Of a stretch of 64,000 nt of DNA, positions 1 through 62,730 are shown piece by piece. Under the pieces are notes generated by a model. The model was not told the origin of the DNA, made no database searches, and saw only the letters and a list, made by a program, of their open reading frames with translations. The stretch covers positions 1 through 64,000 of the forward strand of contig JARWMV010000009.1 of NCBI GenBank assembly GCA_030998015.1, in the 5' to 3' direction. Every line of letters begins with the position of its first letter. Positions within the stretch are counted from its first letter, which is position 1. The position numbers and the translations under genes are program-made. The stretch comes from Ceratorhiza oryzae-sativae. Its lineage: Eukaryota; Basidiomycota; Agaricomycetes; Cantharellales; Ceratobasidiaceae.

Positions 1-59
1 TCACAGTAGGCTAGTACAGGGGTACGTCTCAATCCTGGGTGATGAGGAAGAACTCAACC

Positions 60-570
60 TAATGTCAGAGCTACAACCTGAGCAGTAACGTCAAACACCT
101 AAGTGGTGATGACAAGCCTATGGGCAGCAATGCTGGAGGCTTTACTGACAACGTCTAAGGTGGGACATGCAGTGAGGGTGCGATAAGACGCGAGGAGGTA
201 GGGAAGTAGGTGCACTTGTCCTTAAGAGGACTGGGCAGGGACTATGGACTGGTAAGTCACACAGGTAGTAGAAGGGATACAACAGGAGGTTGAGTTCTGA
301 GGCTTAAGGCTCTCAGACTCTCCCTTATATATTCATGGCCGAGGCAGTACAAAGCAAATACCAGGACCAATAAGAAGCTAACAGTGCCACGTCACTACAG
401 AACATTCCGGCAACACCAAACATTGAGTCAACAACAACAGGGTCACGTGACATGAAGGTAAATAAACTGCATATATCTGAATAAACGGGACTTGTCCAAA
501 ACATTGTAAAAGGAGGTTATAAAAATATAGAAAATTCATAATAAAATCGTGCTCATGGTCTAGGCCATGA
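60..570. repeat. Dispersed repeat copy 1 (solo-LTR-like)
   Basis: First of three diverged direct copies. All share a stretch around AGGCTTAAGGCTCTCAGACT (here near 300-320), a following TCCCTTATATATTCATGG in copies 1 and 3, and an end in TCATGGTCTAGGCCATGACA (here about 554-573), which contains a short palindrome. A terminal ATGACA would fit the 3' end of an LTR of TGTCAT...ATGACA type, but no coding body or target duplication is visible. This copy keeps the most CpG and so may be the least decayed. The 5' limit is uncertain because the window edge is close. Confidence 0.6.
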
Positions 571-1549
571 CATCAACAATCTCCTTCTACATGAATTGGT
601 CACCAAGCTGCTTAGTTCTTGTCCAGTGCTCTTAAGCACAAGTAGACCTCTAAGCCTTCCTGTGTGTTGTTGCATCCTATCCCTTCACTGTGTGTCCCCC
701 TCCAGGTGTTGCAGCTCAACCTTAGGCCACTATAGCCCATAGGTCTGCCTTTGCCTCACCAGTGTTAGGCCTAAGTAGTTCATGTTGTTGGCTCTGACAA
801 AAGGCATGTCATGACCTGACACACATGTATTCACCACATAATATTTTCTCAATGTATTACATTTTTTAAGAACTTTTTCAAAACACACTTTCCTTTTATG
901 GGACAACTGTATCATGTGATTCACAGAATGTCCCAGACTGCTTACCAAGATGTATTTCAACTTTGATGTGAAATTTTGCAGCTCCACAGCAGCTTCTATC
1001 ACTTAGTGATGTGACTTGAAGATTGTATATAAACCAGGTCAAGCTCAACAAGGTCTCCTTACAAACTTGACTTCCTCATCAATACAAGTCTTGTTCATCC
1101 TTTACTCTCCACTTTGCAATATGTCACTGTTGCCTATATCCCCCTTGCCATTGACACCAAGTTGTCTACAGGCTATGCCTCTGTGACCCAAGACACCCAT
1201 GCCATCACTTGACTTGTCATCACTGACAAGGCACAAGAGCATGGCCAGGATTGATTCTCCAGAAACCTGAGCAGCTCTTGGTGGACCTTGTTGTATAAGG
1301 AACTTTGTGCAATGGGACTCAGGTGGTGGAATTTGGATCACACAAATTGCAGCAGTCCTGAGGCAGCACTACCACTCCTAGCATGCAGAGAACAAGCAAT
1401 AATAAACCAAGAGCTAAAGCAAGGATTAAGCACTTATAGCTGTTTGGGTTATTGTACACACAATTTAAGTACTCCTGCTGACATTTGGACTTGGTCATGA
1501 ACTTCTGGAGTAGAGGGTTGCATTTGCATTATTTGTATCAAGCACATAG

Positions 1550-2071
1550 CTGCCAGAGCTATGACCTGAGGAGATAACCCAAACATCTAAGTGGACAATG
1601 GGAGACCTATAGGCAATGATGCTGGAGATCTAAGTCACAATGTCAAGGGGTAAACATGCAACAAGGATGTGGGTTGCAATAAGACATGTGGAGGAAGACT
1701 TTAGTAAGGGCACTATGCTCTAAAGAGAGCTGGGCAAGGGCTGCTTGACTATGTGTCTCACAGGTAGTAGAGGAATACAACAGGAGGTCAAGTTCTGAGG
1801 CTTAAGGCTCTCAGACTCTCCCATACAAGTAGCTAATATCAAATACACCATGGTGCAAGACAACTATCATATGATATCAGAATGGTGCCATGTAACAGAA
1901 TATTCTGGAAGATACAAACAGAGTGTAAACAATAACAATGTCATGTGATCTCATGTAAGTTATTCTACACATATATTTGATTAAAACAAGACTTGTCCAA
2001 AATCATAAAAGAGAGAGGTATAAAATATAATAAAAATCATAATAATTTCTGTGTCATGGTCTAGGTCATGA
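1550..2071. repeat. Dispersed repeat copy 2 (solo-LTR-like)
   Basis: Second diverged copy of the repeat at 60-570, in the same orientation, matching through the AGGCTTAAGGCTCTCAGACT block near 1799 and closing with a variant of the palindromic end near 2053-2071. Its CpG sites are almost all TpG or CpA where copy 1 still has CpG. The stretch between copies 1 and 2 (about 575-1550) and between 2 and 3 (2072-3050) shows no gene I can support. Confidence 0.6.
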
Positions 2072-3059
2072 CAATAGCTCCCTGATCAAGGAGTTCAATA
2101 GTAATAGGTTTGGAGCACAAAACAATGCCTCCTGTCACAACCTGGTCTCTAGGCCTTGATGTGTACTCTTGAAGTACAGTTAACAAGGATGATACCTCCA
2201 CTTATAGTCCTAATCACTGGCTTGGGTTCACCACTTGGTGTTGCCTGGTTGTCTGCTAAGGCCTCCAGTTAAGGCCAGGCTGATGTGTGATTCCCTGAAT
2301 AGGGTTGTCATGCCACTTAGGTATCACTAAGTGGGTCTCAAAGCAGGAATGATGTATATGTCACTCAAGTGTGCAGCTTAGTGACTCATGGCTAGATGCA
2401 AAGGTTTGCACTGCCTCAGTAGGTGGGTGGCTAGATGTGCTAAGGCTGGCTTAAGCAGTCTCTATGGAAAGTGGTCACAAGGGACTCAGAGGTGAGACCC
2501 AGGAGTAGAAGGGGTGTTGAAAAGTTTAAGAGCAAGCTGGAGTTCAGTGTCTGGTCTCAGCTGTATTTATACTGTAGCTACATACAAGGCTGTACACTGG
2601 TTACACACAGCCAAGCACAGCACTTCATAGCCAAGGCAACAGGAGGGAGGCAAAGGAAGAAAGGGGAGTGGTGGCACACAGCCAAGCACTACCTTGAGTC
2701 TGTGTCATTAGGCTGTAAGAGGGTGGCTTGGAGGTGGAGCTGATTCTAAGAATAGACTAAGGTCCAGCCAGGCATAGCAAAGGCCAAAGTCTGTGACAAG
2801 GTCTGGCCAAGAAGAAAAGAGGGGAGAGAGATTTGAGGGTAGCTGTTGACATACATGTTGGACTGTCAATATGCATAGAGTCAAATGACAATGGAATAAG
2901 CAATAAATGATATGGTCACTCAGAAAACTAGGACTCCAGAGTTGAGTTGATAGGCAAAGCCAGTTTTTGTTTGACACTGTTCTGAGATTGTGACCACCAA
3001 CTTGAGGAAAAAGGGGGTTGCCTAAAGTGCTGTTCAAGGATTTGGCTATTTATTGTCAG

Positions 3060-3569
3060 AGCCAACAAGCTGAATGACAATGCCAAACACTTGTGAGGCA
3101 ATGGCAGATCCAAGGGCTGTAATGCCAAGGATCAAGACCATGACATCTAGAGGTGGACATGCAGTGAGGGGAGGTGTTGCAACAACATGCAGGGAAGTAA
3201 GAAGTGCACTTGTGCTAAAGAGCACTGGGCAGGAACTGATTGGCTTGGTGACCACTCAGGTAGAAGGTGGGATGTTCAACAGGAGGTCAAGTTCCAAGGC
3301 TTAAGGCTCTCAGACTCTCCCTTATATATTCATGGATGGCTGTACATATGAAATGAGAAGCTAGATGAAATTGTATGATACAAGGGATGGTGCCATGTCA
3401 ACAGAATATTCCAGAATACATCAACAATGGTCAACAACAACAAGGTCACATGACTCAGTCAATAATTCTACACATATATCTGAATAAACAGGACTTGTCC
3501 AAAAACTAGAGATAAATAAAATCATAATAAGTCAGAGTAAATCTGTGCTCATGGTCTAGGCCATGACAT
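3060..3569. repeat. Dispersed repeat copy 3 (solo-LTR-like)
   Basis: Third diverged copy, same orientation, with the AGGCTTAAGGCTCTCAGACT block near 3299-3318, the TATATATTCATGG segment next to it and the palindromic end near 3549-3568. The three copies sit about 1.5 kb apart. This could be a tandem array of a longer unit or three separate insertions; I cannot tell which by eye. Confidence 0.6.
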
Positions 3570-3836
3570 TTATGAAGCTTGCTACCAACTGGAAGTGACT
3601 CATTTTGACTAGTGACAGGGCCCCACATACCCTGGACCATCTTACCTTTTGATGTGTCAGAAAGGGAGAGTGGGTTGTTCTAATGCAAGCATTGATTTCT
3701 TGTGTCAATTGCAAACAAGACTAGACTAAACAGCAGTCTGCCAACTCTCTCTCAATCTAGAGCTAATCAAATAAGTTGCTCAGCAACAAGCCTAGATCAC
3801 AAATCAGGACTTGTCAATCACCTATAGCACCTACTG

Positions 3837-5981
3837 TGTTTAATCAAAACACATTGCTCAATGTGCCAGTGAAGCTATAGGATATATGATGGTCATCAGG
3901 GGAGTAAAACAGAGTGAAAAGAGCCCAAATGACCCTACCACAGACAGAAAACACCAAGCATGATTGCAGGTTATGTTTCATTACTGCTTTACATTTTTTT
4001 GGAATTTATGGGATGAGATACCACAGCAGAAACTGGCTGGGGGTGTGGATGGATAGTGTTGTGCATGTCTAAGTATGCATGCCATTAAACATGATATCTG
4101 AACTGCTGAATTTTTTAGTTGTATGAATTGCATTGGTGCAAGCAGATTGCACACTAACATGCCAAAATTGGTTCATCAATACAGAAGATATTGGCCAATT
4201 AGTTTAAGGAGGAGGATGTAACTTATGGGTGAATTCATATGACATTTGCTGGGCTGTATCTTACTGCTGAGTGATACAATTTTGACATGTGAGGGTGTGT
4301 TTGAACCATGCTAATAGTGTGCATTGTATGAGTATACTCACAAATCCAGCCTGCCATGCTATCATATTACAATTGCAACTAGAAAATTGAACACTTTTTG
4401 CATTGTGATGGGCTCATTGCCAAGACACTGCATCCTCTAAAGTTTACTGGTATATCAAATACACTTTGAGATATCACAGAAATTCTGCTTAATATTCAGC
4501 TGTGCTCAATGCATGCCTTAAACACAGTAATGCTCTATACTCATGATTAAGAATCCAAGTGACCCACCACTTGCCATTACCTGTACAGGAACTTTTGCCT
4601 CAGGTGTGCTGTGCCTTCAGTTTGACCAATTTGTAAATTAGAAGCCAAGAAACACATGTAAGCATTGGCTTGACATTGCTTTTCAAAATAGCATCTCATC
4701 CTTGTATGTCCCCAATTTTACCAGACTTTGTATGCATAAACTGCCTCAAGGCTACACCACTGAATTGCAGACAGTTCAATATAGCATCTTGTGAATTCTA
4801 TGGGGCTCTGCAACAGTGGAAGACCACAGATAGCCAACCTGTTAACCTGGCCAAAACTTCAGTGAGGATTGGATCTCCCCCAGAGGTCCACATGTGGAAA
4901 GCATCCCCTTTCTACAGGGTGCACAGTCACTCCAAATAGCATAGAGACACCCTACAGTGCATAGACAATTTTCTGCAGAGCACTATTTTTTCTCTCACAC
5001 AGTGCAGAGGTGTGCTCCATGGCACCAGGCATCTCTCTGCAGAGCATAGGGACATCCACAGAGAACCAGTTTTTTCCAACAGAGCAGAGTGCAGAGAGTG
5101 TGAACAGGGAACAAAGTCTCTCTGGAGCATAGGGATTCCCTACAGAGCAGTTGTGCTTTTTAGAAGTAGAAATTCAAGGGGATGTCCATACACCCCAAGC
5201 CAGTGTCTGCCATAGTATCCCATTGCATTAATTCCAAAATAATGTAATGCAGTAATATAATATTTCCTACAGTTGCACTTGGTGTTTTCTGTCTGTGCTA
5301 GTGGCTTTTGGGTAGTATTCAGTCAATTTCAGTCACCTGTCAACTATTGTATATTGTAAGGCTTCACTTGTGCAATGAGCAACAATGTACTGTCTTGGGC
5401 ATAATTCTGTCATAGTGCCAAAAGTGTTCAATTTTCTAGTTGTAATTTTAATATGACAGTGCAGAAGGCTGGATTTGTAAGTATACTCATTCAATGCACA
5501 ATATTAGCATGGTTCAAACACACCCTCACATGTCAAAATTGTATCACTCAGCAGTAAGATACAGCCCAGAAAATGTCATATGAATTCACCCATAAGTTAC
5601 ATCCTCCTCCTTAAACTAATTGGCCAATATCTTCTGTACCATTGAACTAATTTTGGCATGTTAGCTTGCAATCTGCTCTTGCCAATGCAATGCATACAAC
5701 TAAAAGATTCAGCAGTTCATATATCATGTTGAATGGCATGCACACTTAGAAATGCACACAACTATCCATCCACACCCCCAGCCAGTTTCTGCTGTGGTAT
5801 CTCATCCCATAAATTCCAAAAAAATGTAATGTGGTAATAAAACACAACCTGCAGTTGCACTTGGTATTTTCTGTCCACAGTAGGGTCATTTGGGCTCTTT
5901 TCACTCTGTTTTACTCCCCTGATGACCATTGTATATCCTACAGCTTCACTGGCATGTTGAGCAATGCATTTTGATTAAACA
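3837..5981. mobile_element. Large inverted-repeat (foldback-like) element
   Basis: Two arms of about 570 bp, 3837-4410 and 5405-5981, are close reverse complements. Both begin with TGTTTAATCAAAA at the outer ends and run through shared segments such as GGGGAGTAAAACAGAGTG and GTGAGGGTGTGTTTGAACCA. The roughly 1-kb middle has no transposase frame. A third partial copy of the outer part of the right arm lies inside the middle at about 5180-5395 as a direct repeat, so the element is nested or rearranged. This fits a non-autonomous TIR or foldback transposon. The whole element is almost CpG-free. Confidence 0.75.
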
Positions 5982-6579
5982 TGGTTAGTGCAGTGGCTCT
6001 GTCAATGGCCACCAGGAAACATGACAGTTTGAAGCTGAAGTCTCCATAAGGATTCACTTGATTTGGTGAAAACAGCTGTTGTCATTCCATGCATATAGGG
6101 ATACAACCAGTAGTAAAAAAACACCAAATCATCAGATACAAAAACCATCTTCAATACACACCACAAACAGCAACATTCCATATAAATATCCATAATATAG
6201 CTGAGCCTGGGGCAAGGACAAAGGCAGGGATCTAAGCTGACAATCCAGTGACAATTTGGTTATATAATGGTTGCTACAGACAGCAACAAGTATCCAATTG
6301 CATCTCCCATCCAGTCTAGGACGGGCAGGTCCTAGATAGCACACAGACCTCAAGCAGGCCAGACTTGAGGCAGTGCATACTTGCTCACGATACACAGGCA
6401 ACCCCTCTGCCACTGAGCCAGCAGTGACAGTTGGCCTAGGGGTCGTTCATGTATGCAGCGAGTAACTTTGGGAGGTGGAGAGGAGAGGGGGGGGGGTTGC
6501 TGCCTGCTGGGTATGCTTTGTGTCACTGGGGTATTCGGTTGTGCTCGTTGTCCCTGCAGAAAGTCCTGGCTATTTTCAG

Positions 6580-14166: not shown

Positions 14167-16079
14167 ATGTCATCCTGTGAGTGACGTATTGTCTGTTGTC
14201 CGAAAGCCTTATCTGACATGTATGGTCCAGCCTCACAGGACCTTTCAAAACAGTCCGAGGTGTCGTCCACTGACGGATCAAAAGACAATACTTTGTCTGG
14301 CGACTCCCAACCGACGAAGCAGCCACTTAGGAAATTCGATTTTGGTTTCATCCCCATCCTCCCTCACCTGCGATATGACCCTGAGCGGCCGTTCCATTTC
14401 GGCTTGCCACTGAATCTATTTTTTGGGCTGGCCAGCACTTTGAGTGAGCATATTGAATTAACGAGTGCACGACTCTCGTCAGCTCATACGTTTCGATAGC
14501 CGTGGGCAACTTGTACTTTTGCCAGCCTATTCTCGGTATGTTGAATCTATCCATTTGCACAACTTGAGCTTATTATTTTCTAGTTCGGCTGGCCGAGTCT
14601 TTTGGCGTCTCGCATGAGGAAGTGACTATGATCCCGACTCTTACACAGTCAGGGTAAGCCGCCTTTGGCTCTCAGGATGTTACTTTCTGGGCCTAACATC
14701 CCACGTCGTGCTTAGCTATGCAGTTGGCCTACTCCTGATTAGTCCACTGGGCGACCTTGTTCGACGACGCCAACTCTTGCTCCTACTCGGGTGCCTCATT
14801 GGCGCATTCACCCTCGGCCTCGCACTCTCCCCCACAAACAAGATCTTCGCCGGCCTCTCTTTCCTTATGGGCATCTTTACTGTCGTCCCCCAGATCATGA
14901 TCCCGCTTGCCGCCGATCTCGCACCCCCGGAACGTCGCGCATCCGCTATCTCTATCGTCCTCTCTGGTCTCCTGCTCGGCATCCTCTTTGCCCGGGTCTT
15001 GTCCGGCATCATCGCCGAATTCACCAGCTGGCGTGTCATCTACTGGATCTCGACCGGTCTGCAGTTTGCAAACGTATTTGCGATGTGGTTGTTCGTGCCA
15101 GATTACCCCGCCAAGAATACTGGCTTGTCGTACTTTGGCATTCTGTGGACGATGGCGCGGTACGCTGTGACAGAGCCGGCGTTGATCCAGTGTTGCTTGG
15201 TCATTTTCCTGTCGTCGGCCGTGTTTGTCAACTTTTGGGTCAATCTGACGTTCTTATTGTCGGATGCGCCGTATCATTACAACACGTGAGTGCATCCTTT
15301 TTTTGAAACTGCCTATCCATGCTCATTCGTGGTGATAACAGTCTCGAAATTGGTCTCTTTGGTCTCGTTGGTGCTGCGGGGGTGATTGTCACACCCTTTA
15401 TTGGCCGCTTTGTCGATAAGCTCAACGGTTGGACTGCTACTCTCATCGCCATTCTCGTTGGCATTGTCTTCCAAGCTATCTTTACGGGCGCGGCAGGTAT
15501 CCACATCGCTGCAGTCATCATCGTTTGTTTCGGCAAGTCTATCTTTCCATTACTTTGTCAGCAAGAGATTTACCAGTCATTTTCTTTTTGCACAGGACTC
15601 GATGTAGCTGCACAGATGAACCAGGTCTCCAACTCGAGCCGTATATATGCGTGAGTTTAATATCCAGTCATTTGCTCGAGAGGCCTGGCCATCTAAAACT
15701 TCACCATAGGATAGAGCCGTTGGCGCGTGCACGGATGAATGCCGTGTTTGTCATATGCGTAAGTCGTCTCACTGCTGGGAATTTGATATCAGTCTGACTC
15801 ATGGCGCCTTGTTGCATAGATCTTCCTTGTACGTTTTAATCAACCGCTTGGCTAGAATGTGCATGTATATTGACAATTTTACAGGGACAAGTCATGGGAA
15901 CTTCAGTAGGAACCCGGGTCTACCTCAAATACGGCTGGCGATACAGCGGTGTTCTCGCACTTGGATTCCAAGGCCTCATGATCGTTTTCCTGATGCTCCG
16001 CGGTCCTCACGCTCCTCGAAAGCTTTGGCTCGGTTGGTCTCGCGAGAAAAAGGGCGCTGCCGGGGGCGACAAGGCATAA
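14167..16079 (+). CDS. Major facilitator superfamily transporter
   Basis: Membrane transporter of the MFS class, probably a drug or metabolite:H+ antiporter. Ten exons join in phase: 14167-14176, 14231-14443, 14500-14535, 14584-14653, 14716-15285, 15342-15532, 15596-15650, 15710-15758, 15820-15828 and 15885-16079, giving 465 residues with many hydrophobic segments. GDLVRRRQLLLLL after the second helix is the MFS motif A region, and APPERRASAISIVLSG resembles the loop and helix of bacterial AraJ-type exporters. The intron at 15533-15595 is GC-AG (GCAAGT donor), and one exon is only 9 nt. The alternative start at 14218 would skip the first intron. The gene converges on the NOS gene, with about 200 bp between stop codons. 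Confidence 0.88.
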
Positions 16080-16275: not shown

Positions 16276-19200
16276 TCACTTGCTTTCAGCCTTGATATGA
16301 AGAATCGGATCCGTATCTGTTTTGCCCTTGGTATAAGTGTCCGCGAGCATTCGTCCCTCGCGCTTCAAGCGAGACAAGTACCCGCGCGTCTCCTCATCAG
16401 TGAACCCCTTGGCTTCCTTTACCAAACCAAACACCGTATCATGCACGCCATGTCCCATCTCATGACTACCGCATACATACAGCGCCGCACCCGAATCGAG
16501 CATCGAAATGACATCGCAAGCGTGCTCTGCGAGCAGATCCTGGACGTAGGTCTTGCTTTGACCGGCTTCTCGGGAATAGGCGATGTAGACGTGCATAAAG
16601 TCTGGCAACGTCTCCGAGCCGAGTTCGTCGTCGTATAGATGCTCGTGCCGCCCGCGGAAGCCGAAAAACGCGAGCACTTTGCCCGACTGGCCGCGGACGT
16701 TGGCGCGGCGCTGGACAAAGCCTCTGAATGGCGCCACACCGGTACCCGTCGCGACTAGGATTAGAGGGACCATTGGATCGGAGGGCAAGTGGAATTTGGA
16801 CCGTTGGACGCAAGCTTTGAAAGTGAGAGAGTGGAAACTGGCGACGGGACTGTGGATTAAGGAAGAGGAGACACGCCCTTTGTATAGTTCGGCCACGGTG
16901 AGTGCCACCGTCGCGGAGCCCCGAGAGGTCGATCCAGAAATGCTGAACACGCGGGGGCGTTTGATCGGTAGGAACGAAGAATGAGGCTCGCTTGCTCCAT
17001 CGTGGGGGTCGTCTTGATCAAGCGTATGGTATCTAGAGCTGTGGCCGTTGGCTGAGAGTCGGGAATGAGGCTTAATAATTCTTTAGTTGGTGGTGCGTGT
17101 AGATCGATGTAGTTTCGCAGCAGATCTCGGACGTTCTTTCCGTCGACTACCTATGTTTGGCTGCGTGAGCTGATAAATTTGCCATCCAAATTCGACTTAA
17201 CTTACCGTATCGTACTCAAGATTCAGTTTGTAGTATACCTCGAGCGCCTCGACGTTGGCTGTAATAGGCAGCAAGGTCAAATAATCTCCCTCCTCATAAG
17301 TCCACGCTTGACCATCCTTTCGCGCAAACTCGAGGTGGTAAACTGATCGATGTTCGGCACCAGTGGCATCATCGTCAAACAAGGCACGTCGTCCGACCAG
17401 TGTCGAGTCGACAAACTTCTCTTGCATACTACCCATGCTTGAGCCTAAAGGCTTCGATAGCGCATCGTTTTCTGGATCCAGGTCATTGCTTCGAGATACC
17501 AGAGTCTGTGTGCCGACTTCGATGGCGATAGAGAGCGCCCGAGTGAATTCTGTAAAGGCCGCCTCGGTCGTCCCTGCCGTTTCGTCCCCCTCACCCAGTG
17601 GCAGAATCCGGCTCCCTCCCAGGCGCTCTAGCGTCTCGTCTACCCATCTTGGGAATTGTTGATAGGTTTTCGTCCAGATAGAGTTACCAAGACCGAAGAC
17701 AGCAAATCGGACAGGGTTCGCGCCGACCCTCTCAAGGGGGCGTGGAGATGCTCCGAGATCGTTGATGTGCTCTGAGAATAAGCTTGCGTCGCTTGGTGCC
17801 TCGCCGTCGCCGAAAGAGGAGGTCACCACGATGAGTGTTCCGCTAATTTTGGTCAAATCCAAATCGTTGAGCTCCACAAGATTGTCTGCTACCTCCAGAG
17901 AGCGGGCATTGAGGTGATCATGAAGTCGGCTTGCGAAGCTGAGGGAGGAGCCAGTCTCGGTTCCGTAGGCGATCGTGATAAGGTTAGGATTCTCCGACTC
18001 GTCCAACGTTGGACTGAGATCGGTTTTAATGAGTGTTTTGCCAACTCGACGAAAGTACGTTTCCCAGCCTTCTTCCTAAGTATAGAAACATTTTATTCAG
18101 TCTGGTGTTCAGAAGTACTGGCGTGGCCGGACTCACCACAGGCAACAATACTGCGGGCTTGATTAAATAGTTGTACATTTCCTAATGGATGGCTTTAGCG
18201 AATAGGTGTTGAATCGCGAAGAGAGTCCCACCTGATGATAGACCTTCGTGGTGGAACCTCCAGTAGGAGGAACAATCCAGACCTGCATTGATGAAACGTT
18301 AGTACAAACACTCTCAACAGAAAATCAGTAGCTTACCCAGTCGCCCGGACAATGTCCTCGAACCTTCATTTCCTTCTCATAATACCGAACGAAGCTGTCA
18401 GAGGCACTAGAGGACATAATATCAGAAGACATCCCCCATAACAAGACGAGATCATACCTGTGATGGTCAACCATAGTGACCTTGGCGAGATCGTAGGAAT
18501 GTAGTACGGCTTGGTTCAGTTCTAGAACCGCCCGGTCCTATACAAAAGCATTGGGTACGTCTCAACTCGAATGGCCAAGACGAACCGACCTTCCATAAGC
18601 TTCGGTTAGAGAGTGGCAGCCCGAGACCGCGGCCAATCGCAGGGAGAACGTTGTACCTTTGCTCATCCGCCAGATCCCGAGTGGCTACCTCGTTACACAA
18701 GAACCAGCCTGTTAACGAGACAGGATTAGATCGATTCTAGTATTTCAAATCCCGACAATAACACTTACCACTGAAAGCGCAACATGTATAGTCGATGCCG
18801 CCGATGCTCAGCGTGAGGTTGCTCACCGCAGGATGGCTATTCCTATCATCCCAAGATGAGACGTAAGCACCTTCTCCAGGACACAATTCAAAAAGTGTTC
18901 ACGAACCATCGAAGACCCAATTCTTCAAACCAAGGCAGAGTTGGATGCGTAATTTTAACTTCGTGGATATTTTCTCTCGGGATCTCTTGCATCACCGGCT
19001 CGCCCTGACCGCCCCCTGGAACAACGATGATAGGGAGAATGTCAAATCGACCATATTTTGGCTGCCACCCAAGCTCGATTGCTCGGTTTGTGAGTTCGAT
19101 GTTCATTGGGTCGCCAATGATGGTCCCGTCTGACATTTTATACTACAAAAATGAGCACGTTTGGAAGTGTAGATAACATAAGGCACTCACTCCAGCATAT

Positions 19201-20200
19201 CTCATAAGTTGTGCGTTCCAAATACGGCCGCTCTCGAGACCAGGGAATTTTTGCGGAAATATGGTCGCTAATGGTGTATTAGCAATCTCATCCAGAATAC
19301 TAACCCAATCGAATACGAACTGGTTGGTTTGACGCGGCCGCCATTGTTAGCTATTTCAATATGCCGGAAACAGGCTTCTAGCATCTCTTCACCAGTGGTT
19401 ACGTTCCGGCAATCGATTGTATGCATGGTCGACCTGGGACTCTCGGTCGGCAAGACCCATGAAAGAATGGTTCAAACATACCATTGGCTTCGCATGATGC
19501 AACGGCGAGCGTTCCGCCATGCGGTTCGAACACCGAACGAGAGCTCATCGTAGGTGTGAGTGTAATACCTATTTGATCGTGAGTAATAATTATCAGAACA
19601 TGTGTTTGTACACACCCTTGCCGCCGGATATCGTTTTCTACCTCCTTGAGGCGAGCGAGGAGGTCGCATATTGGTAGCTTGTTCTCCTTGTAGAATTCCG
19701 CCAAATACTACGCATAACCGAATTTCACAAAGGGATAGCAGCCCAGGTTGAGTTCACGTACCTCCTCTGCTTCAGCCCATACCTCCTCCGAAGTCCGCTC
19801 CATTCCTCCCAGTGGCTCATCGTGTTTGACCATCATGCTGTTTAACATGTTAACCGGATCTAATTCAGATACCTATACAGGCGCTGACCTTCCGTGACAA
19901 ATATTCTCCTTGCATCCCATATTGTACGCTAATCATGCTCAGCATACGGGAGTGTGGTTGAGAGACATTGACTAACTGGTTGGCATTGAAACTGGATGCT
20001 GGTATTTTCCGTTGGCAAGATTCATCGTTTTTATGACGCCATCGGGCAGCTTGGGACCACCATGGTATTGTGGATAATCGCCCTGCAAACGGGATATCAG
20101 AGGCTGTTCATGGGAGTAGTAAGGTCCTTACCTTCATTGGTTTGCCACTCATGACTGGGCATTGTGATATTGCGGTTGCTACAGATGCAACTGGCGCCAT
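16276..20200 (-). CDS. Nitric oxide synthase (oxygenase plus reductase, full length)
   Basis: Converts L-arginine to citrulline and NO using NADPH and O2. Seventeen exons were traced from ATG 20200 to stop 16276 (about 929 residues). Oxygenase half: CX4C zinc motif Cys64/Cys69; haem-ligand Cys151 in [22 protein letters not shown] and GDPMNIELT; arginine-binding Glu233 in GWFLCNE; pterin-site Trp318 in WVWIVPP. A short linker (residues about 349-379) carries a basic, aromatic [14 protein letters not shown]. Then come the FMN domain ([15 protein letters not shown]), FAD motif RVFSISG, NADPH motif [10 protein letters not shown] and YVCG. The FMN domain lacks the autoinhibitory insert of constitutive mammalian enzymes, as in inducible NOS. 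One base appears to be missing near 16.97-17.05 kb, where the frame changes between ATALDT and FLPIKRP with no usable intron. Confidence 0.93.
16970..17055 (-). other. Frame break in the NOS connecting region
   Basis: Exon 17150-16276 is 875 nt and enters in phase 0, so it cannot end in frame. Upstream the frame reads [12 protein letters not shown] and ATALDT, as expected of the FAD connecting domain; downstream [14 protein letters not shown] lies in the frame one base earlier. No GT donor exists between them. A one-base loss explains the change. The connecting segment is also about 20 residues shorter than in animal NOS. Confidence 0.7.
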
Positions 20201-21289
20201 AACGGTCGTCCGGGAATATTGTGCTCAATAAAATCTAGATTCATTGGCTTTATACCTCGTAGAGATCCGTTGCCACGTGGAAATGAGCCATTCAGGCTGG
20301 CGGTTCGCCCTCAGAGCATTGCGTGAATTAGAACAAAATCAGATTCTGACACTTCACAGGCTTGCGTCAACAACTCTACTGAACCGGCGGATGAGCACGA
20401 GGCATTCCGGCGGTACAAAACGAGCCGCGGTAACTTGATGAACGGACATAAACTAGGTCTATCTCCCGGGCTGAGATAAGTAGACGAGTTGGTTGGCGAA
20501 ATGTAGCTCAGTTGGACAAGTTCGTGAGAGACAAGTTGTGTGCCTGGTGAGAACACCGTAAAGTATCGGATGATAGCTCCGCCAAATCCCGGGTTCATGG
20601 TTGGCTGCGGTATTTGATTCGTTGGGTCGGTTAAGCCGTGTCAACAGAACTAAGAGCTAACATTCTCTACCCGAGAGTAGGGCCGACGTGAGCTGAGATT
20701 CCGCCAGTCTATTTTCTTCAGAAGAATTAATGCGGCGCACGACATGCTAACAAACACTTCTCAGTTTTCAGCAGGCAAGTTCGGAGGGTGGGTAAGAGCA
20801 TGCACACAAATTGATCACGTGATTAGATTTCGTCCCAACCACTGGCAGGAACGAAAACGACATGTAATTGGTAATATTTTATCAAACCCGTCTGACCAAC
20901 ATGTGAGGCCGGTGTTTACGGTCTACAGAAACGTGATCATGTTAGAGAACAGCCACAAGTTTGCATGGATCGGAGATCATTCAAGGTTTCTCAATAATCT
21001 CGCACAGTGCCTGCCTGCGCAGCTCCGCAGTGCATTCGCCATATATCGAGGATTCCTCAAACCACGTGTGACCTTACCGACTCCAATCGAGAAGTCGAGG
21101 GAATCTTCCTGCCCGCATACACTTGCCACGAGTAATTTCGTTCACCATCCCAAGGCCTTTACACTTAGTCCATTGATACTGGTTATTGCCCGACCTAACC
21201 TGATAACAGTAGTCATTGATTGCAGAAGACGTCCAGATATGTAAACTTTGTCCAAGAGAAAACCTATTCAGAATCAAACAGATAGTGTT
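20201..21289. other. NOS upstream region
   Basis: About 1.1 kb between the NOS start and the 3' end of the Ser/Thr-rich gene, which points the same way. A 166-codon plus-strand frame (20744-21244) has no recognisable domain and I do not call it. A GATCACGTGATTAG palindrome at about 20814 contains an E-box-like CACGTG and could be a transcription-factor site for NOS. Confidence 0.4.
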
Positions 21290-22121
21290 CTACACCTCCC
21301 ACCACCACGTACGGCGGCGGAAAGGCGGTAGAGTAGAAGTTTCCGTAGCCTGTGAGGGACCAGGAATCAGAATATATATATAATAAAACATCTATGAATA
21401 TGCTCACAGTATTGGAGGCGGTCGCCGTTGTCGTAGCTGACGTTGTAATGCCTATCCCATCAGATGTTGTACTCAACGTCTCGGTCAACGAGCCTGTCGC
21501 TGTTGCCGAATTTGTGGCCGTGGTCGAGTCTGTGACGAGCGTCGAGCCAGTAGCCGAGGTTACACCTGTTGTCCCGGAATCCGTTGCCGTGGCCGAGTCG
21601 GTCGATAGTGTGTTTGTGCTCAATGTGTCGGTAGTGACCATACTGGTTGTGACCAGAGTGTCAGTGGTGACTGGAGTCGTGACACTATCCGTTATTGATG
21701 TGGCAGAGTCGGTGGTAACGATGGCCGACGTGGTCTTGAGTACCGAAAGCTATGCATCAGATATCCGCGTGGATGCGGTCAATATATGTTTACTCACCGG
21801 TTCCACGGAAGTCAAGCATACGGTGACCGTGGTAGTTTTTGTCGTTGTCGTCGTCTTTGTGACTGTCTTGGTCGATCCCGTGCTCGTCTGTGTTGTTTAA
21901 CTTTTAGTTGTTTGGTGAGCAAAAGCAACGATTGACCCACCTTGGGCACAAGCAATGTCAAGGTCTTTGTCACGAGCATATACTCATCGTCATTGGCACG
22001 CTCAGCCTGTGCAGACAGTTGATTTCAGCTAATCAGATAAAAAGTGTTATTCATCTACCAATTCAATACCAGTAACGCCCAGAGCAAGGAGCGCTATGAA
22101 GAGACCTAGACCTCTGCGCAT
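21290..22121 (-). CDS. Secreted Ser/Thr-rich mucin-like protein
   Basis: Unrecognised but well formed. The start ATG at 22121 opens a signal peptide (MRRGLGLFIALLALG), followed after an intron by AERANDDEYMLVTK and then a long Thr/Ser-rich region with strings such as TKTTTTTKTTTVTV and many TDS/TDT repeats, a typical O-glycosylated wall or adhesin-like stalk. Introns in phase end in AACACAG|ACG and GCATAG|CTT. If the last intron (donor GTGAGC at about 21405) is spliced, the protein ends at 21290 in a basic, Trp-rich tail; if not, the frame ends at 21264. No GPI signal is obvious. An 11-base G run lies just upstream at about 22166. Confidence 0.6.
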
Positions 22122-25314: not shown

Positions 25315-28300
25315 TTATGGCATGAGTTCTGGGGCGGAAGAGCTGAGCACGCAGTCAGGAGGGACCCATATGAGCAGGTCACCGTCATATCTGATCCATC
25401 CATCATCGCAGAGTTCCCAATCATCCCGGGAGCTCTGTTTGATTTTTTGATCTGTGTTCAGCCCTCCACCTTGGACATAGTTGCTCAGCGTCTCGAGAAG
25501 TTGGTCCATCGTGACGGGTGCATGGTCGCAAGGATGATAGGGTGATGTCACTGGACGAGTCGTATGGACCAGACACGTACTTCTCCGTCCACGAGCGTGA
25601 TGCGACACACGAGCCACAACGTAAAAATATAATTTCCCTGACAGCCTCTCTGTGCTCCGTGAACGGTTCTCCTATCGGTTTACCACTGTATGCGTCCCAT
25701 AGTCGAACCGTCTTGTCCCAAGAACCAGAGGCAAAAAGCGAGCCATCAGGTGAGCATGCAACTGACATAACCTTTTCTGTGTGTCCCGTAAGTAGTTGAC
25801 CAATCTGTTGTCCAGTGAGTGCGTCCCAGATTCGTATAGTCACGCCATCCGAGACGGTAATAATACGGGTGCAACAAGGTGAATATGCAGCAGAACTGAC
25901 CCACCCAGTGTGTCCTGTGAGTGGAACAACATCCTTGGGCGGGTACGCAGACCATGCATGTACAGTCACGTCATCAAACCAGCCAACGAATTCATTGAGA
26001 TGGTCCATTTCTGGACCTGAAACTGACATGAGAGAATATTTATGTCTCTCCAGAGGTAAACTAATCACCTGGTTGTCGTATACAGGATAATTCCGTATGA
26101 TCTCATCTAAGAAATCAGGAGCAACTCGGAAGTAACCTGGCAAGTATACAGGAGACTGGCATATCTGTTGACTAGTATGGACATCCCAAATGTGTAAGGT
26201 TTCTCGATCCCAAAGCCGGCTGTATATGCAATATACCGGCTATTGGGTGACCAGGCGAATGTGCGGACAGCAGCTACTATTTGGGCAGTATTTTCCCAGT
26301 TCTTTGTACTATTTATGCATAACCCCGAGCGGACGAGTAGCTGCGTGCTAGGAACGCCCCATCAGGCGAGCAGGCCATTGAATTTAGATAGCCAATGTAA
26401 GGATCGAGCGGCGTCTTTTCCACAATCAGTTGCGTGTTCCAGATGTTGATATGACTCTTGGTCACATCGTTTGAGGCCAGGCGGGAGCTATCAGGAGAAT
26501 ACGCAAGTGCAGATATGGGGCGGGTTCTCTCGCCCCAATCCAGGGGCCCCACTTCTTCCCCACTAAACCCGTCCCAGATAGTTATTGAATAACCTTCAAT
26601 AAAAGTACCACCAGCAATATGTTTGCCATGAGGAGAATATATGATTGAATCCACACGTCCAGGTGGTTCGCGTATACCGAGAACACTATCGTAGAGCCAA
26701 TCACTTTGGTTATCCAACGATATCCCCTGCAGAATGACAGCTGCATCCCATTTTGCTATGTATTCGCCATTTGGGGCAATAAGTGCATTGGCAGGGGAGA
26801 ATAAGACTAAGAATGGCCGTGATGGATCGAGTCGTTTCTGAATCCAGAGCTTCATATCGATTGGTTCTGCGATCTCTTGACCTGTCCGCGTCTCCCAAAG
26901 ACGAACAACTTGAGCGTCAGACCCAGTAGCGATCAAAGCTCCATCTCGTGAGTATGCAACTGATGTAACCGTATTACAGTTGTTTGCTAAGATTTCGCCG
27001 TTCCCTTGAGTAATGTCCGTGTTCCAGATGCGTATGGTTCCGTCACTAGATCCAGAAGCAATGCGGCTTTCATCAGGCGAGTATGCAACAGAAAGGACAG
27101 CATCCGTGTGGCCTAGCATCGGTTGACCGACCTGCTGGCCGGTGCGGGCGTTCCAGACGCATATCGTTCCATCGTTAGATCCAGAGACAATAATTTTGCC
27201 ATTCGGTGAATATACGACCGAATTTACCTGCCCCGTATGCCGTTTGAGTGGTTGGCCGACAGGTTGCCCTGTGTATGCGTCCCACATGCATATAGTACCA
27301 TTCTCGTGACCAGAAGCCAGGTGAGCGCCATCGGGTGAGTATACGAGGCATATTACGTCACTGTCGGTATCAATAACAGCAATTTTGTGTATTCGTTGAT
27401 TCAAGGCAGTGCCCTTGATATCTATAAGCCCAGAAAAATGTTGGGCATAGCGTTTCCGTATTGGTCGATCTTTCGGCCATAGTGCCAGTCCAGATATGTA
27501 AATGTGAGGCGTGCTCTGTAGGACATTATTGAAGGCTAATATAGTAGTGAAGTCCACGGTATCTCGAATTAACTCCCTTGTCTGCATTGAGCAATCGGGA
27601 ATCTTTCATCGTGTAAGCATATTCATGTACCTCTCTGGCTCCAGTCAAGCGCTTACCTTTGCGCAAGATTGCAACGACTTCATTCCGTCGGATATAAAAT
27701 TCTTCAGGTTGATTATCTCTAGCCACAGTAGCAAACGAGTTGACAGGAAGCTTTCAAGGCGACCTAGGAGATGCTCCGACGATATCCCCGTATCAGGTGT
27801 GCACACCAGTAGCGACAGGCATAGTGCAGTGCATTCGATATTGCGTTCTTGACTTTTGTTTCAAGATCAGGGACATCTCTGTCGAATATGTACGATGATT
27901 CGAGACGACATATGTTGAATGGGGGGTCGGGCTTGTCAATCGCATCAAAGCACATTGCGGCCATGCGTACGTGGTGTATTTGAGGGCTACACCAGAACTT
28001 GCCGGATCGCTGCTCGCTCAACATATAGTCCGGGAACGACTCGTGCAGTGTCGTCACAATATTAGTCTTTTCGGCCAGATACAACACCGACATGAGCGGC
28101 CGCAACGCAGGGCGCAGCACATTTTGGAGGTCAAGGCCTGTGAGTTCCGCTATCGTATCGAGCGCGAGTGGCTCCTGTGCGCATATGATCGTATGAAGTA
28201 GTGTGGTCATACAATCTCGGTCCTTATTCGTGTACCTGCGGCTCTCGAACGCTGACCTGAGTACGGCGGTGTATATAACATCGATTTCACCATGGGTATC

Positions 28301-30425: not shown

Positions 30426-33369
30426 ATGTCCACCGGAGACGTCAAAATGTTTGCGTATCATTTTCTGTTTGCGATCGACGTTTACCTTGTGTTTCGTGGG
30501 CAGTCACTCGAACCGGCGAGCATCGCCGACTCAAGCGGATGGCAAGCTCAACAAAATATCTGGTCTTTTGACTGAGAATCCGGCAAGTGTAGACAACCTC
30601 AACCGATTCGTTCATTAACCGTTTCGATTAGGCACAAGGCGGTTCGCAGGCAATGTGTATGTCGACCGTGGTTGTTTAGAGTGCCTTGGGTTTCTACTCA
30701 ACGACATACCCAGTGTACGCCGTCGGGCTTAATGAACAAAACATCACGAACCCTCAGGTTGGGATCAGCCCAGTATGGTGGGAAGGTAACCTCTGACTCG
30801 CCGTAGCCTATTTCCTAGTTGTGATCTGACACTGTATCATAGGCAACCCCTGCAATGCACACCTGGTCCGTCATGCATCTCATTCCTCGGGTGTAACATG
30901 CCGATATAGATTCCTTACAGCTGGAGTTGGCCAAAAAAGTGAAGGAAGGATGCGAGGCGGAAAACATGAACGGGTTCCTATTCAGCACGATCGGCGTTAG
31001 GTATTTATCCCTCTTAGCAATTCAGTGCGCGATACTAAAGGTTTTGCGCAGCGATGGAATAACAATGTCGACAGAAGGGATGCGCTATGTTCGTAACCTA
31101 TTAAACCATCTACGATCGAGCTATGTATATCTGACATATCCATCAGAGCTTACCCAGCCGTGATTTGATCGCGGACTCGATCGAAGCTGTTAGTAATATC
31201 ATCATATGGCTCTGACTTTTGCTAATTTCATGATATATCAGGTCACGATGGTATGTCCAAAACTCGCGACTATGAACCGACAGATCTAATTGCAATACCA
31301 CAGGCTCAGCACTACGATGGTAACATTTCACTTCCTGGCTGCGACAAAAACAGTACGTTGACTTACACTCACCTTCCGCTTGCACTGATCTACATTGGGA
31401 ACTAGTGCCGGGATGTCTGATGGCTGCGCTTCGGCATAATCGACCCACCATCCTCGTTTACGGTACGCTCCACCCCACTATATGCGCCAAACATAGGGTT
31501 ACATGGTATCACCAAATCAGGTGGCACGATCCAAGCTGGTATCCGACATGTCGACTGCCCTGCCTTGGGTTACAAGAAGGGCGGTACGGTGAACATTGCT
31601 GATGCGTTTGAAAGCTTTGGAGCGTGGAAGACCGGCAAGATCAGCGAGGAGGAAAGGTTCGACGTCGTGCGGCATGCGTGTCCCGGAGCGGGAGCCTGTG
31701 GCGGCATGTGAGTGGGATACTGGAATGGATGCGGGACGACGTTGATTGCATGCCTTTTAGGTATACTGCAAACACGATGAGCACAGTGCTAGAAGTCTTG
31801 GGCATGAGTCTGCCCTACTCTGCTTCGATTCCAGCGGTCTATCCAGGTAAGCCGAGGTTATGAGTTTATGGGATTAAATACGATATATGGGTCATGTAGA
31901 GAAGGCCCAGGAATGCTTCCGTGCTGCAAAATACTTGAAGAACCTCTTGGCAAAGGACATCAAGCCGAGGTATGGACTCTTAACCGAACGCTTTCGCGAA
32001 GATTCTCTAACGAAAATTATAGAGACATCATCACCAGAAAGGCGATCGAGAACGCCATCACCGTCGTAAACATTATTGGAGGCTCAACCAACGCTGTAAG
32101 GCTTAAATATGCTACATGTATACCGGGGATTAAATCATCCTTCCATCAGGTCCTCCATCTTCTGGCCATCGCTCGTTCGGGCGACATTCCCCTCACCATT
32201 GACGACTTCCAGACCATCTCCGATCGCACACCTTACCTCGCAGACCTCAAGCCATCTGGCAAATACGTGATGGAAGACCTCCATCGTGCAGGCGGCATTC
32301 CTGCGCTTCTGAAATACCTCCTGAACCACACCAACTTGATCGATGGGACGCAGATGACGGTCACTGGTCGGACTCTGGCCGAGAATTTGGAGGACGTAGA
32401 GGAAATGGCGTTTGGGGAAGGTGCTCAGCAGGTGGTTATGCCGATTGAGCGGCCGATTAAGAAGACGGGCCATTTGACCATTTTGAGAGGTAACTTGGCA
32501 CCCGGGTCTGCCGTGGCGAAGCTTACAGGAAAGGAGGGGCTTTTCTTCGAGGTATGTTCCAGGCATGAGAAAGGGCGACCAGGCTGTTGACTACGTTGTT
32601 CAATGAACGCAGGGTGTTGCCAAATGCTTCGACGTGTAAGTGAATTTCCAGTATGACGGAATATCGGCTTGCCGAACCCCCTTTGGGTTGTAGAGAGGCC
32701 GATTTCTATCCGGCGCTCGAGAAGGGCGAGATCAAGGCCGGGCAGGTTGTCATTTTCCGGTACCAAGGTCCAAAGGGGAGCCCAGGGATGCCAGAGGTGA
32801 TTTCGCAACCAAACTCTTTTCCTATGTCCAGTTTAGACCGTAACTAATTCGAAATTTAGATGTTAGGTATGAATTGTGTCACGCACTTGCTTCCCCCAAA
32901 ACTCTCACAGAAATTATTTCAAAGGGCCCACTGGGGCACTTATGGGCGCCGGGCTGGGAAACACCACTTGTTTGATCACTGACGGTCGGTTCTCTGGGGC
33001 ATCGAGAGGATTTATCATTGGCAAGTACAACTATGCGCACGTAGCCGACATATTGGCTCACTTTCCCATTAGGTCATGTTACGCCCGAGGCACACTTGGG
33101 TGGACCAATTGCGCTCGTCCAGGACGGCGATAAAATCACTGTTGATGCAGAAAAACGAACGATCGACTGGCATGTCTCCGAGGAAGTCCGCGCTTCTCGC
33201 CAAACAGCTCTAATGAAACAGGGTCCAAGGCCATATACTGTCAGGAGGGGGGTGCTGTTGCGATATGCGCGCGATGTAGCGGTATGGGAGTTTTGCAGTC
33301 CAGTCGCTACCAGAGTACTGATTATTCCTATGTATGTAGCCTGCAAGTGAGGGCGCCTACTGTGACTGA
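30426..33369 (+). CDS. ILV3: Dihydroxyacid dehydratase (DHAD)
   Basis: Fe-S enzyme that dehydrates dihydroxyacids in valine, isoleucine and leucine synthesis. I traced 22 exons that all join in phase to 595 residues. The Fe-S cysteines lie in GNPCN, PGCDKNMPG and [11 protein letters not shown]; other landmarks are [22 protein letters not shown]-type [10 protein letters not shown] and [17 protein letters not shown]. Two exons are tiny: 9 nt at 31242-31250 and 7 nt at 32860-32866. The intron at 33021-33072 is GC-AG (GCAAGT donor). The leader before the catalytic body is short (MSTGDVKIHSNRR), with no clear mitochondrial presequence although fungal DHAD normally works in mitochondria. It may be a second, non-housekeeping copy. 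The frame is intact. Confidence 0.93.
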
Positions 33370-44604: not shown

Positions 44605-46509
44605 ATGCCTTCTGAACAAGTCTTCAACAACAAGGACGGTGCGACTTACACCACGTCCAACGGTGCACCATACGCCGAGCCATACGAGGCTCAGCGGATC
44701 GGACCACATGGACCGCTGCTCCTGCAAGGTATTCCTCTCACACACGTCACCGACCGAGTCTAACACGACACCCAGACTTTCACCACATCGACCTCCTCGC
44801 GCACTTTGACCGCGAGCGCATCCCCGAACGCGTCGTCCACGCCAAGGGCGCTGGCGCACATGGCTACTTTGAAGTCACGCACGACATTTCCGACATCTGC
44901 TCTGCCGCCATCTTCAACAAGGTCGGTAACCGTGCTCCGATCACCATTCGCTTCTCCACTGTCGGTGGCGAGTCCGGCTCGGCTGACACGGCGCGCGACC
45001 CCCGTGGGTTTGCGATCAAGCTTCGGACGGAAGAAGGCAACTGGGACTGGGTCTTCAACAACACCCCCGTCTTTTTCCTGCGCGATCCAGCCAAGTTCCC
45101 ACACTTTATCCACACCCAGAAACGCGATCCGCAGACAAACTTGAAGGATGCGGACATGTTCTGGGACTACCTCTCGCAGAACCCAGAGAGTATCCACCAG
45201 GTCATGATCCTCTTCGGTGACCGTGGTGTTCCAGATGGCCATATCGCCATGCACGGATACTCTGGCCACACTTTCAAGTGGATCAACGACAAGGGAGAAT
45301 TCAAATATGTCCAGGTTCACTGCATCGCAGAAAAGGGAACCAAGGTGCGATCTCATTTCGTCTTCGATCCTTGACGTCATACTCAGCGTCATTTCAGTTC
45401 TTGACTCAAGAGCAATCGGTGGAGCTTGCCGGAAAGAACGCCGATTATGCCACTCAGGACTTGTTTGAGGAGATCGAAAAGGGCGAAACGCCTACATGGA
45501 ATGTCTTTATCGTATGTCCTTTTTTCCATCCATGTCTCTTGATCTAACATTATGGCGACAGCAAACGATGACACCAGAACAGGCCGAATCTTTCCGCTAC
45601 AACATCCTTGACCTGACCAAGATCTGGCCTCACGATGAGTTCCCGCTTCAACCAGTGGGCAAGCTAGTTTTGGACCGCAACCCCGAAAACTACTTCAACG
45701 AGATCGAGCAAGTCGCGTTTTCGCCCTCGCATCTCGTGCCGGGCGTTGAACCCTCGGCGGATCCGGTTCTCCAGAGTCGGCTGTTCTCGTACCCGGATAC
45801 TCACCGACACAGACTGGGTGTGAACTACCAACAGATCCCGGTCAATGCGCCGTTGTGTCCAGTTGCAAACTTCCGTGGGTTTATATTCTTTTCTTTTTTT
45901 TCTTTTTGAGAGTGGACCGTTAATACAAATATGGATATTCAGAACGTGGTGGATTCATGAGCGTCATCTCACAAGGCGCGCGACCAAACTACCAGTCCTC
46001 GATCGCGCCGCTCACGTACAAGAAATCGCTTTCGACCGTTTCGCACGAGACATTTGTAGGGGCAGCCGTTTCGGACTTGAGCGAAGTTACCGAGCGTACG
46101 TTTATCTCCTTTCGTCGGCTCGATCGGATACTAACCCGAGATTACAGTGGACTTTGAGCAACCCCGCGCGCTCTGGCAAAAGGTCTTTGCGAAGACAAAA
46201 GGGCCCAAGACCGATTCGTCAAGAACGTGGCTGGCCACCTAGGCAGCGCCAAGAGTGCAGAGATCAAGGCTCGTCAACGTACGTTTATTCTACCTTCATG
46301 CTCGCCACCCTCCGCTTATCCTGCATTATAACTATAGTGGCGGTCTTTGCAGCAGTTGACCAAAACCTCTCTGACCGAATTGCCAAGAGATGGGCGTGCC
46401 GACCGTCAAACCGTTGCAGGTCAAGTCGGCATCTGAGGCTGTCAGGTTCCAGGCTGGCGCGACAAAGGGCCCAGTTGGTATCAACCGCGCGCATACCGTG
46501 CGTGTAAAT
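44605..46509 (+). CDS. Catalase (haem, small-subunit type)
   Basis: Breaks down H2O2. Exons in phase: 44605-44728, 44776-45344, 45398-45511, 45562-45874, 45943-46095 and 46148 onward. The active-site His is in [20 protein letters not shown], the essential Asn in [12 protein letters not shown], and the haem-ligand Tyr in [14 protein letters not shown]. The length fits small-subunit fungal catalases of about 500 residues, with no C-terminal flavodoxin-like domain. The 3' end has two apparent one-base losses. At about 46184 [11 protein letters not shown] is followed, one frame over, by [20 protein letters not shown]; at about 46387 the frame returns before [13 protein letters not shown]. As assembled, translation stops at the TAG near 46240 and loses the last 90 or so residues. 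A sequencing error is the simpler view. Confidence 0.92.
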
Positions 46510-61349: not shown

Positions 61350-62730
61350 ATGCTGAAGTACATCAGGCGCCTGGTGGGTCATATCGCTCTCCCCTTCGCT
61401 AGCGCCACTCATCCATTCCTTTAGCTTCTTAAACGCAGAAGAACCACCCCTCCGGATTCCATTACCAAACTTCCCATCGAGATCCTACTCTATATTTTCC
61501 AAACATGTTCCCCTTCCGACATTGTCTCCTTGATTCGAGTCAACCGCTACTTTTACGAATCACTTCAACCACTTTTGTTCGAGACAATCAACTATCATTC
61601 CGAAAAGTCTTGCAAACGGAGCATCGCAGCTTGCAACCTCATAATAAACAAACCATCCCTAGGCAAAGCGGTGCTACGATTCGACCCTGCTGGGAGCCAC
61701 TTTAAACGTCAGACCGAGCAGGTCGAACGGATATCTCAAATACAAGCGAAGGCCCTTGCGCTCATGCCAAACTTGACGGACTTGAATATCTGGGGGAAAT
61801 CTATTCTTCCTCAGCACCTGGCTCAAATCGCGTATAAACCCACTGCACCCCAGCTCAGGAGGTTGACGCTGATGCAGGTCATTCCAGAAGAGTACATGCC
61901 GATTATACCAGTCCTCGTGCGCGCCCATCCCATGCTTACGGAGCTTCGGCTATGGCCGACATTACGAGCGGACCAATTTTCGGACGCCGCACCAGGGTTC
62001 TCTCTCGACAGGAGTGATGCGCCCAGGCTGAGGAGTTTTACCGGATCGCTGCCCGTTCTTGGGAACCTGCTGCAGGACAAGGATTTGCCAGAACACGAGG
62101 CAATCATTCATGCCACCATCGCCTCGCCGATCCTCCTACATGAAAACTTTGAAGCGCTGGAGGTGCTGAAGGCACGAGGCCGTTCATTGAGATCGTTTCA
62201 GTGTCATGTGGTCGTTGCCAATTGGCATGCGATGGAGGTGATAGCCAACGCGCTGCCCCAGCTCGAGATTTTGAAGTTGCACGTATTGGCGAACTTTAAG
62301 AGAGATCGGTTTATGAATTTTATAAATCAGGTGCGCCTTGATCTCGGTGTCAATTCAGTTTTTATTTATATATTCACGGAACGAGTAGGTTGAAGGTTTA
62401 GAGCACTTTACGAAACTTCGCGAGCTGCATTTAAATTCTCGAGACGTTACCGTTCTCCACCGTACCGCATTCCGGAAAAAGGGCGCCGAGTTGGAAACTA
62501 TATTGCGTTTCAGTGAACAGTGCCCGTCTCTGGAGGTGATCACTATGCCGCCTTACCGGCGGTGGGTTCGAGGCGACGACGAAAGTTGGAGCCTTCTTTC
62601 GGGTCGAGAGCTGCATGAGCATATCAGCTTCGTCAAGACACAACTTGGCCAACCAAACGACGGGCAATTGGGTCGGAGCCAGGTGCGATCCGATATGTCA
62701 GAGGAGTCTTCAACAGCCAGGAGCCCGTGA
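61350..62730 (+). CDS. F-box protein
   Basis: Likely substrate receptor of an SCF ubiquitin ligase. Three exons in phase: 61350-61373 (MLKYIRRL), 61425-62330 and 62389-62730, giving 423 residues. An N-terminal F-box is clear: KLPIEILLYIFQTCSPSDIV followed by RVNRYFYESLQPLLFETI. The remainder has loosely repeated leucine-rich strands (LPNL-, LTELRLW-, LEVLKA-, LEILKLH-like), as in the many F-box proteins of agaricomycetes. The start is set by a short first exon, since the second exon is closed by a TAG upstream. Substrate unknown. Confidence 0.85.

Follow-up and report, generated by a model that had tools for sequence, protein, structure and literature searches.

A single-copy nitric oxide synthase gene in a fungus of the Ceratobasidiaceae with a shortened FAD/connecting region and an apparently missing calmodulin helix

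The 64,000 nucleotides of Ceratorhiza oryzae-sativae DNA analysed here (the window) contain one nitric oxide synthase (NOS) gene, and its identity as a NOS oxygenase is unmistakable. With a probability of about 0.7 we regard it as a genuine, single-copy NOS of a member of the Ceratobasidiaceae that belongs to an Agaricomycete clade and encodes a working enzyme of the kind outlined in the Discussion. The calmodulin helix appears to be missing in the NOS proteins of this clade, as judged from linker sequences and a predicted structure.

Results

Structure of the gene

The gene is located on the minus strand between an ATG at 20200 and a final stop codon at 16276, and homology-guided GT-AG splicing resolves it into 17 exons separated by 16 introns of 47-64 nt, all 16 with GT-AG borders. 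This splice model confirms the strand, the extent and the exon number of the initial annotation. The reading frame stays open through exons 1-16, which account for 735 residues. The initial annotation had also proposed a profile search with NOS oxygenase models, and the spliced protein, translated in the frame entered from exon 16, matches PF02898 with residues 88-441 (E 5.2e-140) and, in addition, Flavodoxin_1 (E 2.9e-22). NAD_binding_1 is matched by a separate open reading frame at 16276-17082 (E 1e-15). The proposed fused NOS of a basidiomycete is thus seen as far as the oxygenase, the linker and the FMN domain are concerned, but the NADPH part is only found in a second frame. A chance match is not an issue because the closest protein among the matches listed, from Ceratobasidium sp. 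AG-Ba, is named NOS and is 91% identical over 96% of the query. The matches P0001-P0005 share 82-91% identity with the window protein, and every one of them carries the name nitric oxide synthase in one source or more. Across the genome assembly (48.8 Mb, 253 contigs) the locus in the window is the single NOS oxygenase locus, and the DNA of the reductase part is also present in one copy.

Ligand positions were assigned by aligning the protein with nNOS and iNOS chains of solved structure, and we take the zinc, haem, substrate and pterin positions to have the roles established for mammalian NOS (Table 1). The zinc CX4C pair (C64/C69) and the haem ligand Cys151 had already been named correctly, because both align with solved NOS. 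In contrast, two residues had been misplaced: residue 233, taken as the arginine-binding Glu, is a Met, and residue 318, taken as the pterin Trp, is a Thr. The aligned substrate Glu is E330 and the aligned pterin-side Trp is W413/W415. Therefore, the pair of haem Cys and substrate Glu expected of a NOS is present, with the Cys as originally numbered and the Glu at 330 instead of 233.

Table 1. Coordinates of the NOS gene and its parts in the window
Feature	Position	Strand	Basis
NOS gene, 17 exons	16276..20200	-	splice model, Pfam, orthologues
Exons 1-15, N-terminus and oxygenase domain	18137..20200	-	splice model, Pfam
Zinc CX4C motif, C64-C69	19897..19914	-	exon-table count, alignment
Haem ligand Cys151 codon	19499..19501	-	exon-table count, alignment
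Substrate Glu330 codon	18689..18691	-	exon-table count, alignment
Pterin-side Trp413 codon (Trp415 in the next exon)	18337..18339	-	exon-table count, alignment
Exon 16: end of oxygenase, linker, FMN domain, start of FAD domain	17206..18075	-	splice model, Pfam
Haem-FMN linker, residues 450-477, 28 aa, without basic 1-8-14 pattern	17980..18063	-	alignment distances, motif count
Exon 17, frame entered from exon 16, relatives-like for 59 residues	16974..17150	-	alignment to relatives
Site of reading-frame change	16971..16974	-	alignment to relatives
Exon 17, other frame: FAD RxFS motif, NADPH domain, C-terminal tail	16276..16971	-	Pfam, alignment to relatives

An MFS transporter gene at 14618-16079 on the plus strand (PF07690, E 9.8e-22 on 14618-15286) adjoins the NOS gene on the opposite strand, and Ser/Thr-rich open frames of low complexity are present at 21264-21900, just past its 5' end. 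The window also contains two adjacent frames filled with WD40 repeats (25424-27605, minus strand), a dihydroxy-acid dehydratase (ILVD_EDD, 31808-32587, plus strand), a catalase (44616-45371, plus strand; PF00199, E 5.8e-100) and an F-box protein (61425-62390, plus strand). The GC content is 0.41-0.43 in positions 1-6000 compared to about 0.45-0.57 elsewhere in the window.

A change of reading frame in exon 17

The gene had been described as full-length, but the two halves of exon 17 are found in two different frames. From its start at 17150 the exon resembles the relatives for 59 residues in the entered frame, with 55 of 66 aligned residues shared with P0001, and past 16974 the homology is lost. 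From 16971 onward the NADPH half follows in a different frame, and it agrees with P0005 at 203 of 231 residues. Because of a stop in the entered frame the literal product comprises 832 residues and ends ahead of the RxFS motif and the NADPH domain. All five of P0001-P0005 continue through the break point in the alignment, as do P0006 and P0007 when inspected by eye, although these relatives are gene predictions, some of which miss other stretches. In the relatives the FMN, FAD and NADPH domains are thus encoded in one continuous frame, whereas the NADPH half of the window gene is in another. The NOS of Dendrothele matches the first frame of exon 17 weakly (7 of 31 residues).

An intron does not seem to explain the break. 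Merely two bases separate the conserved stretches, so that no GT-AG intron fits when the sequence is read by eye. A longer alternative intron within exon 17 would keep the frame solely by removing a conserved segment of 16 residues. The site is outside any long homopolymer. To control the quality of the assembly, the genome was searched for HSP70 (22 matches) and Cpn60/TCP1 (46 matches), together 26,067 matched bases. Three places, chosen for overlapping or abutting neighbouring matches, were read, and the remaining ones were judged by their table coordinates. A one-base, intron-free frame change was found in an HSP70 gene on contig C11, presumably BiP-like, and another in a Cpn60/TCP1-type gene on contig C17, presumably a CCT subunit, where it coincides with a run of five A. 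At the third place, on contig C239, apparently an ordinary intron had been read through, without a change of frame. As a side observation, Cpn60-type exons with equal scores and spacing are found on G000:C14 53354-54945 and G000:C29 159394-160985, which perhaps represent two haplotypes retained in the assembly.

Because two chaperone genes elsewhere in this assembly have similar breaks, an assembly error is the likeliest cause of the break in the NOS gene. It is quite probable, though not proven, that the frame change is such an error; otherwise the gene would have been broken recently. In the latter case the isolate would make at most an oxygenase-FMN protein of 832 residues without an NADPH domain, and no self-sufficient NOS. 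The sequence as given reads in this way, and the position of the break outside a long homopolymer is in line with it as well. However, a broken gene is unlikely given that a second lesion is not seen: all introns are canonical, the frame is open on either side of the break, and the NADPH half has stayed closely similar to that of P0005. In addition, the window branch in the oxygenase tree (0.034) is about as short as the branches of the relatives (0 to 0.03), and the two chaperone genes with comparable frame breaks also speak against it.

Relatives and phylogenetic position

Ceratobasidium belongs to the Basidiomycota, Agaricomycetes, Cantharellales. Apart from the AG-Ba protein, the closest sequences among the matches listed are from Ceratobasidium sp. 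394, Rhizoctonia solani (two records) and Ceratobasidium sp. 414, and the oxygenase is 95% identical to that of Ceratobasidium sp. 428 over 343 columns. P0001-P0005 resemble the window NOS in domain order, the short linker and the FAD/connecting region. They differ from it in being continuous through the point of the frame change, and several of them are imperfect gene models. Two NOS proteins are on record for Ceratobasidium sp. 414 (P0005 and P0007), compared to one locus in the genome of the window. As predicted, P0007 lacks the stretches with the haem Cys and the substrate Glu, which perhaps reflects a poor gene model.

The oxygenase tree (59 rows) is unrooted and was computed from a set without ascomycete, Physarum or choanoflagellate NOS. 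Within this set the window sequence groups with six Ceratobasidiaceae (100/99), and Dendrothele and four metagenome proteins are the next to join (100/100). The sister group, which is not firm, consists of Basidiobolus and four metagenome oxygenases (92/88). Nineteen animal rows together with two metagenome rows are separate (100/98), and so are the bacterial rows (100/99). The tree gives no support to a recent transfer from animals or bacteria, and it places the window NOS, which had been called animal-like, outside the animal clade. The Dendrothele bispora NOS (P0012), from the Agaricales, belongs to the same clade as the window NOS (100/100) but shares just 46% identity with it over 88% of the query; its linker has 33, its FAD/connecting region 80 and its tail 4 residues.

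Such genes had also been thought to be rare and patchy in fungi. This is true only in part because several Ceratobasidium and Rhizoctonia records, Dendrothele and unnamed metagenome proteins have the gene. The orthologues in the Ceratobasidiaceae are already named NOS, and this kind of gene is therefore not new, while a limited literature search revealed no study of Ceratobasidiaceae NOS. The NOS of Dendrothele is already in print, according to a passage in PMC10073611, and NOS genes or proteins of Inonotus obliquus and Flammulina velutipes are cited in a part of PMC10889981. Ascomycete NOS were not recognised among the matches listed in our three sequence searches; sections of PMC4160249 report them from Aspergillus oryzae, Colletotrichum and others. 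The 556 residues of P0193 from Basidiobolus ranarum comprise a NOS oxygenase and, after it, the first part of an FMN domain, and it could be possible that this is a second fused NOS, outside the Dikarya. Other domain arrangements are also found among the matches. P0013 from the snail Bulinus truncatus contains two tandem copies of the NOS oxygenase in one protein, and the metagenome proteins P0161 and P0225 have NOS oxygenases fused with a GGDEF domain (PF00990).

Linker and autoinhibitory insert

Distances between domains were measured between anchors in an alignment that comprised 13 members of the clade and 110 further NOS. From the latter, P0013 and all matches beyond P0120 or shorter than 1000 aa were dropped, except for six that were added by hand. 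The last Trp of the oxygenase and the FMN anchor are 32-33 residues apart in all 13 clade members, compared to a median of 47 in the other NOS (range 32-54, at least 45 in about three quarters). Linkers of less than 38 residues are present in seven of the 110, five of which we regard as gapped or partial rows because they are gapped at the anchor Trp. The gap at the place of the autoinhibitory insert amounts to 37 in the seven Ceratobasidiaceae rows (relatives) and 28-34 in the other six clade rows. Elsewhere it is 29 in two iNOS, 35 in one insect NOS, 71 in an nNOS and 74 in an eNOS. The short linker and the missing autoinhibitory insert, both part of the initial annotation, are thus confirmed by the anchored distances.

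As a simple rule devised here, linkers were searched for a basic 1-8-14 hydrophobic pattern. The pattern is present in none of the 14 clade linkers including that of the window, whose net charges are between -4 and +2, but it does occur in 83 of 99 long linkers from the other NOS, where the median charge is +12 (11 of the 110 have short linkers and were left out). By this count the calmodulin site of inducible NOS is not recognisable in the clade linkers. Because the 16 of 99 that fail the rule include several iNOS-type rows, the absence of the pattern alone does not prove that the helix is missing. The predicted structure of the Rhizoctonia solani orthologue P0003 (94 rows, mean pLDDT 83.1, pTM 0.51) has a short helix at 448-455 followed by coil, and the confidence drops below 50 at 462-472, where the calmodulin helix of the animal enzymes is located. 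An earlier model of this type built from 9 rows (pLDDT 52) was set aside. The C-terminal tail past the last aromatic residue is 2-18 residues long in the clade compared to a median of 30 in other NOS.

A calmodulin helix between the haem and FMN domains is the mark of an animal-type NOS. None was recognised in the window NOS, which is thus not classed as animal-type. Animal inducible NOS share the oxygenase fold, the ligands and the absence of the autoinhibitory insert with the window NOS. They differ in forming a separate clade, in the calmodulin pattern, and in an FAD/connecting region of 138 (two rows) versus 96 residues. Inducible NOS retain the calmodulin helix, as a passage in PMC7400543 also describes. 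The enzyme had been predicted to behave like inducible NOS, which holds for the insert gap but apparently not for the calmodulin helix, and since the clade seems to lack what iNOS keeps, calmodulin independence is the better prediction.

It is improbable that calmodulin acts via another site and that the enzyme is regulated by calcium. According to a passage in PMC4778047, a fungal NOS-like activity involves calcium ions, but the pattern is absent from every clade linker and the linker charges are far from those of other NOS, observations that cover the linkers alone.

The FAD domain and structural likeness

The FAD/connecting distance is 96 residues in the Ceratobasidiaceae and 80-82 in the other clade rows compared to a median of 145 in other NOS. 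The Pfam profile FAD_binding_1 fails to reach the cut-off in P0001, P0003 and P0008 and narrowly exceeds it in P0012. Because the RxFS-type motif and the NADPH fingerprint persist in the clade alignment, with 49-65 fewer residues between the anchors than the median, we would read the FAD domain as shortened and not as lost. A fungal NOS shown in part of PMC7400543 has apparently lost the FAD domain, as judged by profile, and a derived FAD domain in fungal NOS, with Dendrothele named, is mentioned in a section of PMC10073611.

In a Foldseek search with the P0003 model, Synechococcus syNOS is the top match over the whole length, with a TMq of just 0.33 and a large rmsd, and the oxygenase domains of iNOS and nNOS come next with an rmsd of about 2. 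By sequence score, human nNOS (8t1j) ranks ahead of syNOS. The cyanobacterial enzyme works without calmodulin. Its linker (9q05 and related entries) is likewise short, about 28 residues by hand count on the alignment, but its N-terminal part is far longer and the match begins only at residue 477 of 1468.

Biopterin supply and possible targets of NO

The genome contains a gene for GTP cyclohydrolase I and one for PTPS. The latter is split into three exons that match profile positions 2-38, 36-68 and 70-120, of which the second scores below the curated cut-off. One Guanylate_cyc match is present in the genome. An exon-by-exon search, which can miss split domains, revealed neither a globin nor the HNOB domain of soluble guanylate cyclase above threshold. 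Some bacterial NOS serve nitration. Together with the lack of a receptor-domain or globin match above threshold, this would be in agreement with an intact protein whose main product is not used for NO signalling but, for example, for the supply of NO from arginine for nitration or detoxification. Such a role is nevertheless highly improbable, considering that the canonical NOS ligands are retained and that no biosynthetic partner was recognised among the 20 window frames scanned with Pfam.

Discussion

Taking the gene as an intact NOS interrupted by an assembly error, the enzyme would be a homodimer with a zinc tetrathiolate that binds haem (Cys151), L-arginine (Glu330) and tetrahydrobiopterin. 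Electrons would pass from NADPH via FAD and FMN to the haem, where arginine would be oxidised to NO and citrulline. Having neither a calmodulin helix nor an autoinhibitory insert, the enzyme should need no calcium/calmodulin for the transfer from FMN to haem, and the NO output might be set by expression and substrate. Activity, dimerisation and calmodulin independence of the window NOS are what we infer from its sequence and its relatives.

In a wider sense, there is perhaps an even chance that the Agaricomycetes have a NOS lineage of their own, separate from both the animal and the bacterial one, in which the machinery for zinc, haem, arginine and biopterin is kept while calmodulin helix and autoinhibitory insert are missing and at least a third of the FAD/connecting region is trimmed. 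These would be compact, calcium-independent enzymes with their electron transfer gated otherwise.

The source of NO in fungi is disputed. In Neurospora, according to part of PMC4948021, knock-outs of NOS-like genes did not lower NO, and in Magnaporthe, as stated in a section of PMC4778047, the candidate proteins could not explain the NO. A lineage with an unmistakable, single-copy NOS and two genes of the biopterin pathway would permit a clean gene-removal test. Should these enzymes turn out to work without calmodulin, the clade would provide a compact eukaryotic NOS that reveals which control elements are dispensable.
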